64,000 bases of DNA from contig NZ_VEGI01000001.1 of NCBI RefSeq assembly GCF_007679325.1, positions 1,612,001-1,676,000 of the forward strand, written 5' to 3'. The notes beneath the pieces are model-generated. The model was not told the DNA's origin. It worked only from the letters and a program-made list of their open reading frames with translations, and did not search any database. Positions 4,053 to 14,153 of this stretch are shown in pieces. Position 1 is the first letter of the stretch. Every line of letters starts with the position of its first letter. The DNA is from Arthrobacter sp. U41. GTDB lineage: Bacteria; Actinomycetota; Actinomycetes; Actinomycetales; Micrococcaceae. The translations under genes and the position numbers were made by a program.

Positions 4053-5474
4053 ATGAACACAATGCATCAGGAAGAGCAGGGCGGCGGCGTGGACCGCGCC
4101 CTGGAGGAGTTGCGCGGACGCCTGGCGGGGGCGGTGATCGAACCGCAGGACCCCTTGTACGACGAGGCCCGGGCGGTCTGGAACGGCATGATCGACGTGC
4201 GTCCGCGGGCGGTCATCCGGGCGGGCGCCGTCGGAGACATTGATCCCGTTCTTCAGACGGCCCGGCGCACCGGCCTGCCGCTTGCCGTCCGCGGCGGCGG
4301 GCACAACATCGCCGGCCACGGCACGGTCGACGGCGGCCTCGTGCTGGATCTGGGCCAGTTGCGCGGTGTGGACGTCGACGTCGAACGCCGGCTCGTGACG
4401 GTGGAACCCGGGGCGACCCTGGCCGACGTCGACCAGGCCACCGTTACGCACGGACTGGCCGTGCCGCTCGGCGTGATCAGTGCAACCGGGGTCGCGGGAC
4501 TGACGCTCGGCGGCGGCGTGGGCTGGCTGACCCGGCCCGGCGGGCTGAGCCTGGACAACCTGGCCTCCGCCGACGTCGTCACCGCCACCGGAGAGCACCT
4601 GCACGCCAGCGAACAGGAGAACCCCGAGCTGTTCTGGGGGCTGCGCGGCGGAGGCGGGAACTTCGGGGTGGTCTCTTCCTTCACCTTCCGGGCCCGGCCG
4701 CTGCCGGATGCCGTCCTGGGTGGGAACTTCTTCTACCGCGCGCCACGCTGGAAGAGCGCGCTGGGCGCGTTTGATCAGTGGACACAGGATCTGCCCGATG
4801 AGATGAACGCGATCATCTCCTTCCTGGTGCTCCCGCCCGACCTCGAGATGGGCGAGGAACCGTGGATGATCATCGGATTTGCCTGGGCGTCGGAGGACCA
4901 CCAGCCCGGGCTCGAGCTGATCGAGCAGCTACGCGCCGCCGCGCCGCCGGACGAGGAGGAAGTCGCGCCCACCGACTGGCTGGCGTGGCAGTCCGCCATG
5001 GACAGCCTCTTCCCCAAGGGCTCCCGGGGGTACTGGAAGAACTTGTCGTTCTCCCGGCTGGACGAGGCCGCCGTCGACGTTCTGGTCGGTTTCGCCTCCG
5101 AGGTGACCTGGATGGGGACCGGGATTGATATCCACCACATGGAAGGGGCCTTCGGGCGTGTGCCGGAGGACGCCACAGCGTTTCCCAACCGCTCGGCGAA
5201 ATACTGGCTGAACATCTACGGTTTCTGGAACGATCCCGCGGAGGACCAGCGGCTGAGCGAATTCGCCCGGAAGGCCCACGCCCTCATGCAGCCGTTCGGC
5301 GAGCAGGGCGAGTACGTTAACTTCCTCGGCGCGGAAACCGGGCAGGACGCCATCGAGGCCGCACGTCAGGCCTACGGCCCGGACACCTATGACCGGCTGG
5401 TGGCGCTGAAGAACCGTTTCGACCCGGACAACGTCTTCCGCCTCAACCACAACATCGTGCCGACCTCCGGCTGA
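4053..5474 (+). CDS. FAD-binding oxidoreductase, berberine-bridge-enzyme type
   Basis: 473 residues from ATG 4053 (ATG 4062 is also possible). The open frame runs much further upstream, but that part is antisense to the hydrolase. FAD_binding_4 features: AVRGGGHNIAGHG, whose His is the usual 8-alpha-histidyl FAD attachment site, then GVAGLTLGGGVGWL and LRGGGGNFGVV. A BBE C-terminal segment ends in FDPDNVFRLNHNI. The cysteine used by bicovalent members is not at the expected position, so flavin is probably held through the histidine only. The likely role is oxidation of a sugar or a secondary metabolite. It is convergent with the GPP34 gene, 16 bp away. Confidence 0.9.
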   Translation: MNTMHQEEQGGGVDRALEELRGRLAGAVIEPQDPLYDEARAVWNGMIDVRPRAVIRAGAVGDIDPVLQTARRTGLPLAVRGGGHNIAGHGTVDGGLVLDLGQLRGVDVDVERRLVTVEPGATLADVDQATVTHGLAVPLGVISATGVAGLTLGGGVGWLTRPGGLSLDNLASADVVTATGEHLHASEQENPELFWGLRGGGGNFGVVSSFTFRARPLPDAVLGGNFFYRAPRWKSALGAFDQWTQDLPDEMNAIISFLVLPPDLEMGEEPWMIIGFAWASEDHQPGLELIEQLRAAAPPDEEEVAPTDWLAWQSAMDSLFPKGSRGYWKNLSFSRLDEAAVDVLVGFASEVTWMGTGIDIHHMEGAFGRVPEDATAFPNRSAKYWLNIYGFWNDPAEDQRLSEFARKAHALMQPFGEQGEYVNFLGAETGQDAIEAARQAYGPDTYDRLVALKNRFDPDNVFRLNHNIVPTSG

Positions 5475-5490
5475 GACGGCGACGGCAGGC

Positions 5491-8131: not shown

Positions 8132-8161
8132 GGACGACGGCGGAACCTCCCGCCGTCGTCC
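8132..8161. terminator. Perfect 12-bp hairpin, copy 2 of a repeated terminator
   Basis: GGACGACGGCGG (8132-8143) pairs with CCGCCGTCGTCC (8150-8161) across a 6-nt loop. It lies in the 64-bp gap between convergent genes, so it can serve both strands. Confidence 0.8.
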
Positions 8162-9272: not shown

Positions 9273-9302
9273 GGACGACGGCGGGACCTCCCGCCGTCGT
9301 CC
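9273..9302. terminator. Perfect 13-bp hairpin, copy 3 of a repeated terminator
   Basis: GGACGACGGCGGG (9273-9285) pairs with CCCGCCGTCGTCC (9290-9302) around a 4-nt ACCT loop. It sits directly downstream of the secreted phosphoesterase stop, read on the minus strand. Stem and right flank (CCGCTTCCGT) are nearly identical to the copy at 8132. Confidence 0.75.
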
Positions 9303-11273: not shown

Positions 11274-11550
11274 GGAGTACTCCTTGAATGCAGGGGATTC
11301 TCCGCCCGGCACACGGGGACGTGCCGGGCAAAAAGGGGGCGTGAAAAGACTGCTGGTCGTGGGAAAACGCCGGAGGGCGTGCTGGTGGCTGGCGGGTGAA
11401 CTGGGAAGGACCATTGGAACTGTTCCCGCCCGCCGGGTAATCCCCCTGCGCGTCCATTTGTTCCAGTCACGGCCCGACTCCGGGTACCTTCATCGAATTG
11501 TCACAGGGCTGCGCTACGGTTGTCAGCACCATCAATTCATAGGGGGACTA

Positions 11551-12642
11551 ATGGAGTTTTCAGAAAAACTTTCAGCATTGGCAGCAAAGGTGCGCCAGCA
11601 GCGGGATGTGATTCAAACGGAAGAGGCTACGAAGAATGCCTTTGTCATGCCTTTCATTTCCACAATTCTCGGCTACGACGTCTTCAACCCCATGGAAGTC
11701 GTTCCGGAGTTCATCGCGGATGTGGGTCTCAAGAAGGGCGAGAAGATCGACTACGCGATCGTCAAGGATGGCGAGGTTCAGATTCTGATCGAGTGCAAGA
11801 AGTCCACGGAACCCGTGAAGATCGAGCACGCCTCTCAGCTTTTCCGGTACTTCGCGGTGACCAACGCCAGGATCGCCATTCTTACCAACGGTGAGGTGTA
11901 CCAATTTTTCACGGACCTCGATGCGCCGAACCGCATGGATGCCAAGCCCTTCCTCGTACTCGATTTGAACGACATCGATGAAACCCTCATTCCGGAGCTG
12001 CAAAAACTGTCCAAGGACGTCTTTGATCTCGACTCGATCATCAACGCGGCCGGCGAACTGAAATACATTGGTGAACTCAAGAGGACCCTCGCCGCGCAGT
12101 TCAAGGAGCCGGAGGATGAGTGGGTCAAGTTCCTAACCGGTCGGGTGTATCCGGGCCCTTACACGCAGAAGGTGCGCGAGCAGTTCACCGCGTTGGTGGC
12201 CAAGGCGTCCAAGCAGTTTCTGAACGACCAGGTGAACGAGCGGCTAAAGAAGGCCCTGGGCGCCCCGGCTTTCCCGCAGAATGACGACGCAACGGCGGCT
12301 GCCAGCGTCACCAGCGCACCTGTGGCTGAAGCGGACCTGGCCGAGGCTGACGGTTTGGAGACGACGCTGGAGGAAATCGAGGGGTACCAGATCGTGCGGG
12401 CCATCGTCTGCAGCGAGGTCAAGCCCGCTCGTGTGGTGCAGAGGGACGCCAAGTCCTATTTCGCGGTGCTGCTGGACGACAACAACCGGAAGCCGATCGC
12501 ACGGCTGCACTTCAACCGCACCCAGAAGTACATCGGCATCTTCGACGACAGCAAGGAAGAGACCCGTGTGCCCATTAGCTCTCTGGAAGAGATCTACGAG
12601 CACACGGAAGCCCTCCGCGCGAGTGTGAAGAACTACCTGTGA
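11551..12642 (+). CDS. PD-(D/E)XK nuclease-fold protein, HsdR-N-like
   Basis: 363 residues from ATG 11551, with AGGGGGA upstream. Residues about 20-130 match the type I restriction R-subunit N-terminal nuclease domain: Asp67 in KIDYAI, Glu81 and Lys83 in LIECKK, then a Gln-containing helix (HASQLFRYFAV). There is no helicase part, unlike true HsdR. The C-terminal about 100 residues form a separate beta-rich domain (YFAVLLDDNNRKPIARLHFN). The stop overlaps the next GTG (GTGA), so the two proteins are translationally coupled. A role in DNA defence or repair is inferred. Confidence 0.8.
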   Translation: MEFSEKLSALAAKVRQQRDVIQTEEATKNAFVMPFISTILGYDVFNPMEVVPEFIADVGLKKGEKIDYAIVKDGEVQILIECKKSTEPVKIEHASQLFRYFAVTNARIAILTNGEVYQFFTDLDAPNRMDAKPFLVLDLNDIDETLIPELQKLSKDVFDLDSIINAAGELKYIGELKRTLAAQFKEPEDEWVKFLTGRVYPGPYTQKVREQFTALVAKASKQFLNDQVNERLKKALGAPAFPQNDDATAAASVTSAPVAEADLAEADGLETTLEEIEGYQIVRAIVCSEVKPARVVQRDAKSYFAVLLDDNNRKPIARLHFNRTQKYIGIFDDSKEETRVPISSLEEIYEHTEALRASVKNYL

Positions 12643-13307
12643 GTGAACCAGTTGCCGACCTCGATCTGCTCCTCAGCGCAGTCGCGGCTATGCCGACACC
12701 TTGGAAGAGATGGCCAGGCGGCTATGAGCGCATGGATTCAGCATTGGTAGATGCGGTTATGTCGATCCGTTTCCGATACGGCAGACCACGCAACGACGGG
12801 TCGTGGACAGGAGCCCGGGGTGCCGTTCTGCGATATGAGAAGCACGCTGAGCACATCAGCGCTCCAGAGAGACTGCGCCATCTGGCAGGCCAGGACCCGG
12901 TTGCACTCGAAGGGATCCTGAATCGCCAGAAAGTGCATGCGGGAAAGACCAAAGCTTTTGCCATCGTGGAAGTTGCTAAGCGTTTCGCGGCCATTGGGGT
13001 CACTGAGCCAGCACACTTAGACCCGGATAACGCTGATCACAGGACCCAGTACACCGGCGTATCTGGCCTCGGCCCGGTCACATGGGAGTACTTCACCATG
13101 CTCCTCAGCCATGATGGGGTGAAGGCAGACACCTGGATCACTGAGTTCGTGGGGCGCGCGGTGGGGCGACGAGTGACTTCAGAATTTGCCGGCTCCCTCG
13201 TCAAGGAGGCTGCAGAGAAGCTTTGCGTAGAAGAAAAGGGTCTCGATCACGCCATTTGGAGCTACGCCAGCACTACAAGGCTGAAAGGTATGCCGAAAAC
13301 ACTCTGA
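12639..13307 (+). CDS. Helix-hairpin-helix / DNA-glycosylase-like protein
   Basis: 222 residues from GTG 12639, overlapping the nuclease stop by 4 nt. A hairpin-like VSGLGPVTWEYFTMLL followed by KADTWITEFVG resembles the HhH-GPD layout (GVGxxTA then an Asp-Thr near the active site). The catalytic lysine of bifunctional glycosylases is not obvious. I infer a DNA-binding partner of the coupled nuclease. A perfect 14-bp hairpin 29 nt downstream ends the pair. Confidence 0.6.
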   Translation: MSEPVADLDLLLSAVAAMPTPWKRWPGGYERMDSALVDAVMSIRFRYGRPRNDGSWTGARGAVLRYEKHAEHISAPERLRHLAGQDPVALEGILNRQKVHAGKTKAFAIVEVAKRFAAIGVTEPAHLDPDNADHRTQYTGVSGLGPVTWEYFTMLLSHDGVKADTWITEFVGRAVGRRVTSEFAGSLVKEAAEKLCVEEKGLDHAIWSYASTTRLKGMPKTL

Positions 13308-13335
13308 GACAGAGGGAGTCTGCGTGCGATTGCGA

Positions 13336-13369
13336 GCCGCCGACGGCGCGGATCAGCGCCGTCGGCGGC
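13336..13369 (+). terminator. 14-bp perfect hairpin ending the nuclease/HhH operon
   Basis: GCCGCCGACGGCGC (13336-13349) pairs with GCGCCGTCGGCGGC (13356-13369) around a GGATCA loop. It has a different sequence from the repeated terminator family at 261, 8132 and 9273. Confidence 0.75.
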
Positions 13370-13580: not shown

Positions 13581-13637
13581 GTTCCTTCGCTTTGACTCAC
13601 AGAAGACGGTTCCCTCGCCGTGAACAACGTGCCCGTT

Positions 13638-14153
13638 TCAGAGCTCGCGATAGTAGTAAAGCATTGGGTCTGTCTGGTTGGGTTCGGTGTTGGTGAACCC
13701 GTGGGCTTCATAGAAACGGCGCGCATCGGTGTCCTCACCGTCCACGTTGATCTCAAGGAGTGCGCCGCCCCGGCGGCGCACCAAATCGAGGGCCGCGTCC
13801 AGGAGTGCGCTGCCGAGGCGGTGACCGCGGAGCTCTGGACGGACGTAGAGCTCATCGAGGATTGCGACCGGCCCTCGGTACCAGACGTTGGGCCTGAAAC
13901 TAAGCACCGCAACCCCGCTCGCTGGCTCGCCGGTCAGCAGGACCACCACGTCGTCCCCCGCCAGGAGTTGCGTCAATCGGGATTCAAGCTCTTGGGTGCC
14001 GGGCGTCGGCGTCGAGAATTCAGTGTTGAAATCATGAAGCAACTGGGCAACGACGGCGGCGTCGTCCAGCGTCGCCCGCCGCGGCCTCTGGCCGCCTGCA
14101 GAATCGTCGGAAGTCATGGCTTCATCATGAGCAGCAGACGAAGCGGCGTCCAC
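13638..14153 (-). CDS. GNAT-family N-acetyltransferase, copy 1
   Basis: 171 residues from GTG 14153, preceded by AGGAC. The acetyl-CoA-binding signature is LYVRPELRGHRLGSALLDAA, and the C-terminal FYEAHGFTNTE is the usual GNAT strand-helix end. The substrate is unknown. A second copy at 29683-30183 is nearly identical at protein and DNA level, including bases just past the stop. ATG 14117 is an alternative start, but the paralogue's strong ribosome-binding site supports the longer form. Confidence 0.85.
   Translation of the reverse strand: MDAASSAAHDEAMTSDDSAGGQRPRRATLDDAAVVAQLLHDFNTEFSTPTPGTQELESRLTQLLAGDDVVVLLTGEPASGVAVLSFRPNVWYRGPVAILDELYVRPELRGHRLGSALLDAALDLVRRRGGALLEINVDGEDTDARRFYEAHGFTNTEPNQTDPMLYYYREL

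Follow-up and report, generated by a model that had tools for sequence, protein, structure and literature searches.

Do the two overlapping genes at this locus, one for a stand-alone restriction-type nuclease and the other for a helix-hairpin-helix (HhH) protein, encode one small restriction system in which the HhH protein directs cleavage, as an earlier note on this DNA had proposed, or two proteins that are associated more loosely? The open reading frames (ORFs), their starts, and their 4-bp coupling are as that note described them. Within the window (by which we mean the whole stretch of DNA that was analyzed, 64,000 nucleotides of a 3.89-Mb host genome), the nuclease ORF (363 aa; stand-alone PD-(D/E)XK) occupies positions 11551–12642 and the HhH ORF (222 aa; GTG start; HhH-GPD glycosylase fold in its AlphaFold model) positions 12639–13307, both on the plus strand in the ORF list, and the GTGA at 12639–12642 on the same strand contains the stop of the first gene as well as the start of the second. 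A stop/start overlap also occurs in four other intact loci, as GTGA in L119, L122, and L160 and as ATGA in L150. Going by the closest named relatives of its HhH gene, the host genome belongs to the Arthrobacter/Pseudarthrobacter group. The G+C content of the unit is 53 to 62%, versus mostly 61 to 75% in its flanks. When the surroundings were read by eye, neither HsdM nor HsdS was recognized in the window ORF list between 8 and 17 kb, and the flanking genes in the window did not have the appearance of a defense island.

The 3′ end of the pair had been described as closed by a terminator of its own, a claim that stands only in part. A perfect 14-bp hairpin with a 6-nt loop is present at 13336–13369 (stem and fold scans), outside the unit that is shared with other loci; four sites in the 64 kb, this one among them, have a perfect stem of at least 13 bp and a loop of 3 to 12 nt, the 101 nt surrounding it have a fold z of −6.3, and its pattern occurs a single time in the genome. 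Its role as a terminator fared less well: the hairpin has no T-run, it is absent from the list produced by the terminator scan, and no comparable stem exists in the 110 nt 3′ of the HhH gene in the four other intact loci (where the longest perfect stem is 6 bp in L119 and 9 bp in L122, with none of at least 6 bp in L150 or L160). Because it lacks both a T-run and conservation, we downgraded the hairpin from the pair's own terminator to a possible one. Elsewhere in the window, near-identical palindromes (GACGGCGGNACCTCCCGCCGTC) lie about 1.1 kb apart, at 8136–8157 and 9277–9298, and these two places are the sole exact matches to the pattern in this genome. Since stretches of 30 to 50 bases resembling GACGGCGGNACCTCCCGCCGTC recur at numerous further loci in the genus, the sequences suggest a dispersed palindromic repeat.

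The nuclease was correctly recognized as being of the HsdR N-terminal type. It passes the Pfam cutoffs for both HSDR_N (4e-12; 46.9 bits, cutoff of 25.1) and HSDR_N_2 (7.1e-8), matches the PHROGs family phrog_4225 ("endonuclease") at 1.2e-124 across residues 1–362 of 363, and has a weak match to type IIG enzymes in PADLOC (2.8e-5). The PD-(D/E)XK residues that had been picked out from the translation, Asp67 (codon 11749–11751) and Glu81-x-Lys83 (codons 11791–11793 and 11797–11799; all on the plus strand, placed by alignment), are invariant in 76/76 aligned nucleases (counting that of the window), and the same holds for Q96 and Y100 of a QxxxY pattern. In the AlphaFold model (mean pLDDT, 86.8; pTM, 0.57), the HSDR_N-type domain (residues about 1–165, also delimited by Pfam) is followed by a helical middle (residues 160–236), a low-confidence linker (residues 238–269), and a C-terminal alpha/beta domain (residues about 271–361), the last of which corresponds to the added domain already suspected from the sequence. 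The best VIA matches to the N-terminal domain are DrdV (Z, 11.7), a Vibrio HsdR fragment (11.4), and BpuSI (9.3); EcoR124I HsdR reaches a Z of 7.6, a value equaled by unrelated mitoribosomal chains. The C-terminal domain weakly resembles the MotA DNA-binding domain (Z, 7.0 over 84 residues) and YjbR (Z, 5.3), values that may reflect merely a common arrangement, and its double-wing likeness is weak in Foldseek as well (E, 0.8). Foldseek returned nothing under 0.001 for either the nuclease model or the HhH model, and a PDB sequence search with the nuclease gave no meaningful match.

The window nuclease shares its N-terminal nuclease fold and HSDR_N match with the HsdR of type I restriction-modification systems and with type IIG enzymes (DrdV and BpuSI), but its C-terminal domain differs from theirs, and no helicase or methylase family matches the 363-aa protein (E ≤ 1). 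It belongs to a known orphan family and is kept without a partner in most loci. The family is the HSDR_N family phrog_4225 (whose annotation reads "type I restriction endonuclease"), to which the window nuclease aligns over its full length and which we take to be the equivalent of COG4748. Records label members of this family "type I restriction endonuclease," "endonuclease," "hypothetical protein," or similar. Where the window nuclease departs from the family is in the coupled HhH-GPD protein on its 3′ side, which among the examined loci is confined to a subset within one genus. Passages in two papers place COG4748 among the restriction endonucleases borne by Tn7-like transposons (PMC8649781) and record it in S. 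meliloti prophages (PMC12429752).

The nuclease is widespread and occupies a variety of settings. Matches of any kind occur in 64/295 family genomes and 79/198 genus genomes, in 46 plasmid records (23 of them covering at least 80% of the protein), and in 18 phage records; in the three annotated phages that were read, the gene always sits within the lysogeny region, with repressor-type genes on one side and integrase genes on the other. A viral set was assembled from 139 candidate stretches, of which 137 were confirmed and 80 kept. Around the 33 viral loci with both flanks, 126 nearby ORFs of less than 700 aa were picked and 122 scanned, and the 25 families listed, out of 54, include HTH_3 (7), S24 peptidase (5), parts of integrases, and a single RexA. 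In E. coli, a relative of 58% identity is found in 186/5426 genomes, at 187 chromosomal places and on no plasmid, and stands alone between HicAB and aldB in all three regions read. Within the genus, two loci have other ORFs at the place that the HhH gene takes in the window: a TIR-like ORF lies downstream of the nuclease in L145, and a zinc-ribbon ORF with a Vsr-like end in L120, labels that we assigned by eye.

The HhH protein matches no entry in Pfam (PF00730 included), NCBIfam, PADLOC, or PHROGs at E ≤ 1. Its AlphaFold model (mean pLDDT, 85.9) finds H. pylori MagIII as its best VIA match (Z, 13.2; rmsd, 4.4; 198 aligned), followed by EndoIII (11.5) and by MutY and AlkA (both near 11), and all of the 50 VIA matches listed are HhH-GPD DNA glycosylases or glycosylase homologues. 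Foldseek returned many members of the same glycosylase group with poor E-values (best, 4.8e-3), with DUF2419 queuine salvage enzymes among its top rows. A profile built from 41 HhH relatives reaches the 8-oxoguanine DNA glycosylase/AP lyase 9o02 (6.6e-5), an enzyme of the kind that we take to be Ogg2, and the Sulfolobus SsOgg 3fhg (1.7e-3). An 8-row profile found no glycosylase in the PDB sequence search, the single protein likewise found nothing meaningful there, and just 3 of the 41 relatives touch the Pfam HhH-GPD family (best, 0.041).

Aligned by profile to the 8-oxoguanine glycosylase/AP lyases, the glycosylase aspartate corresponds to D164 (codon 13128–13130, plus strand), which is kept in 39/41 relatives, and the lysine (K of 9o00) corresponds to V147 (codon 13077–13079, plus strand), a column occupied by V in 29 relatives, I in 6, L in 5, and W in 1 (V/I/L in 40/41). 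S42 and Y151 are present in 41/41 relatives and W207 in 39/41, and the C-terminal Ile-Trp aligns with that of 9o02. In its fold, its aspartate, and this Ile-Trp, the window protein resembles the Ogg2-kind lyase and MagIII (HhH-GPD); it differs from them in having V/I/L for the lysine and in lacking a Pfam HhH-GPD match. The original assignment to HhH proteins was right, and the profile and fold matches sharpen it: as modeled, the protein has an HhH-GPD glycosylase fold without the AP-lyase lysine. This lysine, according to parts of PMC9638937, serves bifunctional enzymes in both the glycosylase and the AP-lyase steps. Because the lysine is lost while the aspartate is kept, the sequence would fit a monofunctional glycosylase, and the protein is most likely either that or a base-flipping reader.

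Comparing loci with the window by blastn delimits a shared unit of ~1.8 kb, spanning window positions 11485–13318 (plus strand) at its widest. Homology covers 11485–13318 in L119, 11508–13276 in L122, 11551–13292 in L160, and 11540–13292 in L133; in L150, the upstream flank is also common with the window, and homology ends at 13292. L119 additionally carries a copy of window positions 13624–14123 some 2.7 kb beyond. Flanks differ around the unit, such that relatives carry it at various places in the chromosome. Sorted by upstream flank, 60 nuclease loci (counting the window and L181) fall into nine groups of at least two, with 18 single, and the 14 loci with an intact or decayed HhH gene are spread over six of the upstream-flank groups. 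A clean empty site was not found when the window was compared with L283 and L284, in which no nuclease immediately adjoins GDPD: their homology to the window ends at 11417 and 11411, respectively, and the other flank has no match. Purifying selection acts on both genes (dN/dS of 0.085 to 0.168 for HhH in 10/10 pairs and of 0.017 to 0.029 for the nuclease in the 7/10 pairs that were computable, with many dS values near saturation). In both genes, the smallest divergence is that between the window and L119, and L150 and L160 are likewise nearest to each other. The pair is real, is found at different sites, and is under selection.

Viewed from the HhH gene, the coupling is as tight as had been supposed: the near-complete close relatives in the genus sample (at least 69% identity, window included) lie directly behind a nuclease in 7/7 cases, two of the seven being broken (L133 by a frameshift and L134 by an internal deletion). 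Viewed from the nuclease, the association is much looser. This was counted over 59 of the 68 full-length genus nuclease loci, read together with long flanks (window included; L153, a nuclease fragment, and L181, from another genus, left out). An intact HhH gene follows the nuclease in 5 of these loci and a decayed one in 9 (L115, L116, L117, L121, L125, L129, L133, L134, and L149); 1 locus (L132) is doubtful, and 44 have no HhH gene there, five of them showing just a 17-nt match that we treated as chance.

Beyond the close relatives, the HhH family has a match of any kind in 32/295 family genomes and 28/198 genus genomes, along with 19/394 class genomes at E 1e-15. Relatives occur in two plasmid records; none was found in the phage record search, nor in viral contigs with three single-protein queries sensitive to close relatives only, and the HhH profile had no match among the ORFs around the nuclease in the 80 viral loci (some truncated near the gene where the contig ends). 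Most members of the HhH family do not have this nuclease beside them. The co-occurrence on which the proposed system had been staked is found at one level but not the other: close HhH relatives sit behind the nuclease, but the genome-level overlap of the broad HhH family with the nuclease is at chance, in 7/295 genomes (expected, 6.9) and, within the genus, in 15/198 (expected, 11.2; p, 0.14). Because the nuclease is mostly kept without HhH and because genome-level co-occurrence does not exceed chance, obligate pairing of the two was rejected (44/59 loci without HhH and 9 decayed, no HhH match in the 80 viral loci, and the nuclease alone in the three E. coli regions read), and the proposal that the HhH protein directs cleavage is left unsupported.

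In a 58-row nuclease tree (midpoint root; L149 not included), every HhH copy, whether intact (5) or decayed (8), falls in one of two supported groups with 14 and 18 rows, and 9 changes are needed to explain HhH presence. Because the copies are confined to these two groups and require so many changes, the HhH gene was probably acquired close to the base of these groups and lost many times, transfer being the alternative. Two of the decayed copies, in L116 and L117, resemble each other in form: in these loci, which have different upstream flanks, the HhH gene keeps its first 62 bases, fused to its last ~80 to 110, and the deletions have an identical left end and right ends within about 30 bases of each other. 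A different arrangement is present in L153/L083 (G421), where a C-terminal HhH fragment (residues 183–220) lies upstream of a C-terminal nuclease fragment (residues 272–363). From this reversed order, the locus is apparently the relic of a tandem or rearranged unit.

The explanation that we prefer, tentatively and with somewhat less than even confidence, is that a restriction-type nuclease able to act on its own is assisted by an accessory glycosylase-fold protein, probably a monofunctional one, the two forming a mobile unit deployed against foreign DNA. The compact two-gene unit would move laterally and be used against such DNA. Its HsdR/type IIG-like PD-(D/E)XK domain would cut DNA, and the separate C-terminal domain of the nuclease, weakly double-wing-like, would probably read it. 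On incoming DNA, the translationally coupled HhH protein would flip out or remove an unusual base, and the strand cut, which is beyond the means of a lysine-less glycosylase, would come from the nuclease. We infer the nuclease and glycosylase activities, the role in defense, the physical cooperation of the two proteins, and the substrate.

The leading rival, which is possible but which we consider rather unlikely, holds that two independent genes travel together, the nuclease being a selfish or defense gene in its own right, with the HhH protein acting alone (in the manner of Brig) or in repair and being coupled to the nuclease for expression only. This accords with an HhH family that is mostly without this nuclease beside it and a nuclease that is mostly without HhH, as well as with chance-level co-occurrence across genomes and the nine HhH changes on the nuclease tree; however, the five intact copies share one gene order and the overlap, and the two genes agree in their divergences, with the same closest pairs (window/L119 and L150/L160). 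It is improbable that the HhH protein is a base-excision repair helper that removes oxidized or alkylated host bases, or mends collateral damage by the nuclease, with no recognition of invaders. Although its top profile matches are 8-oxoguanine glycosylases and its top fold match is a 3-methyladenine glycosylase, the protein lacks the lysine of the 8-oxoguanine glycosylase/lyases, is patchily distributed (any match in 28/198 genus genomes), and belongs to a unit found at different sites, and some of its relatives lie beside restriction genes or on plasmids. About as improbable is a small modification-dependent restriction system in which the HhH protein serves as an obligate specificity subunit, the nuclease cutting only at a base that HhH has recognized or excised: the overlap conserved in intact loci, the 7/7 close relatives directly behind the nuclease in the genus sample, and the glycosylase fold with its aspartate would suit such a subunit, but the nuclease is intact without HhH in 44/59 loci and accompanied by a mere wreck in 9, stands alone in 3/3 E. 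coli regions, lacks an HhH match in 80 viral loci, and has a C-terminal domain of its own.

Under the preferred reading, an accessory partner to an autonomous nuclease, the unit invites comparison with two sorts of known enzyme. As described in parts of PMC13160076, Brig1 and Brig3 are anti-phage DNA glycosylases against modified bases, and Brig3 is encoded in an operon; Brig3 differs, however, in its weak homology to uracil DNA glycosylases and in its partner BapA, which is a glucosyl hydrolase and no nuclease. R.PabI is reported likewise to restrict via base excision but to belong to the HALFPIPE superfamily, to have intrinsic AP-lyase activity, and to act within restriction-modification systems. 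If the HhH protein reads or excises phage-modified bases, the unit would represent base-excision-aided restriction by a route unlike those of R.PabI and the Brig enzymes, and a role would have been found for a family whose window member has no counterpart in the four databases searched. The glycosylase-fold partner is optional and decayed or absent in most loci, which amounts to a natural experiment for setting loci that have HhH against loci that lack it. Among open-licence papers, none was recognized as describing the nuclease-HhH pair; HhH or glycosylase terms are absent from PMC10853773 and PMC12839542, and PMC13092281 has one passage naming UDG.

Outside the window clade, there are 61 HhH loci, 48 of which have an adjacent ORF called; 30 neighboring ORFs of distant HhH genes (10 picked by eye and 20 from a mechanical list) were scanned. 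Eight of these, at seven loci, match restriction-type or nuclease Pfam families, and distant HhH genes directly adjoin such genes in at least six loci besides that of the window: GIY-YIG lies upstream in L175 (1.4e-21) and downstream in L174 (7.4e-7), NucS_C adjoins HhH in L180 (3.1e-8), Mrr_cat in L186 (6.5e-26), and a type I R piece in L346, and the HhH gene of L328 is flanked by PLD/ResIII/DUF3427 and GmrSD on either side. In L189, the restriction-type or nuclease neighbor is ~1.1 kb off and on the opposite strand. As a control, we scanned 20 of the 52 candidate ORFs centered 2.8 to 5.2 kb upstream of distant HhH genes, of which 2 are restriction-type, or 3 when a RecB-like PDDEXK_1 protein in L175 is counted. 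Because 2 of the 20 control ORFs are also restriction-type, direct nuclease adjacency of distant HhH genes does not demonstrably exceed the local background (8/30 versus 2/20, a small control), and the claim of a general enrichment of HhH relatives beside nucleases was dropped. Judged from these family matches, some members of the HhH family do sit in restriction-rich neighborhoods. We regard it as doubtful that this unnamed, lysine-less HhH-GPD family constitutes a swappable base-reading or base-excising module beside HSDR_N, GIY-YIG, Mrr, NucS-like, GmrSD, and type I R nucleases; if it did, different nucleases could restrict DNA with modified or damaged bases.

Several other neighbors were seen near HhH genes and left uncounted, including DUF6361, DUF6119, RES/HEPN, and a second OGG-like gene; those that we call McrA-like and CBASS-like carry by-eye labels. 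The L181 protein has an NCBIfam match below the cutoff (6.3e-4) to PT-DNA restriction. At L321 (positions 4803–5483, minus strand), an HhH relative overlaps the following gene, a Pfam OGG (PF21790; 2.7e-43), such that two glycosylase-fold genes stand in tandem. In L344 (G240), a distant HhH gene lies ~1.1 kb upstream of a nuclease of 81% identity, with one same-strand ORF between them.
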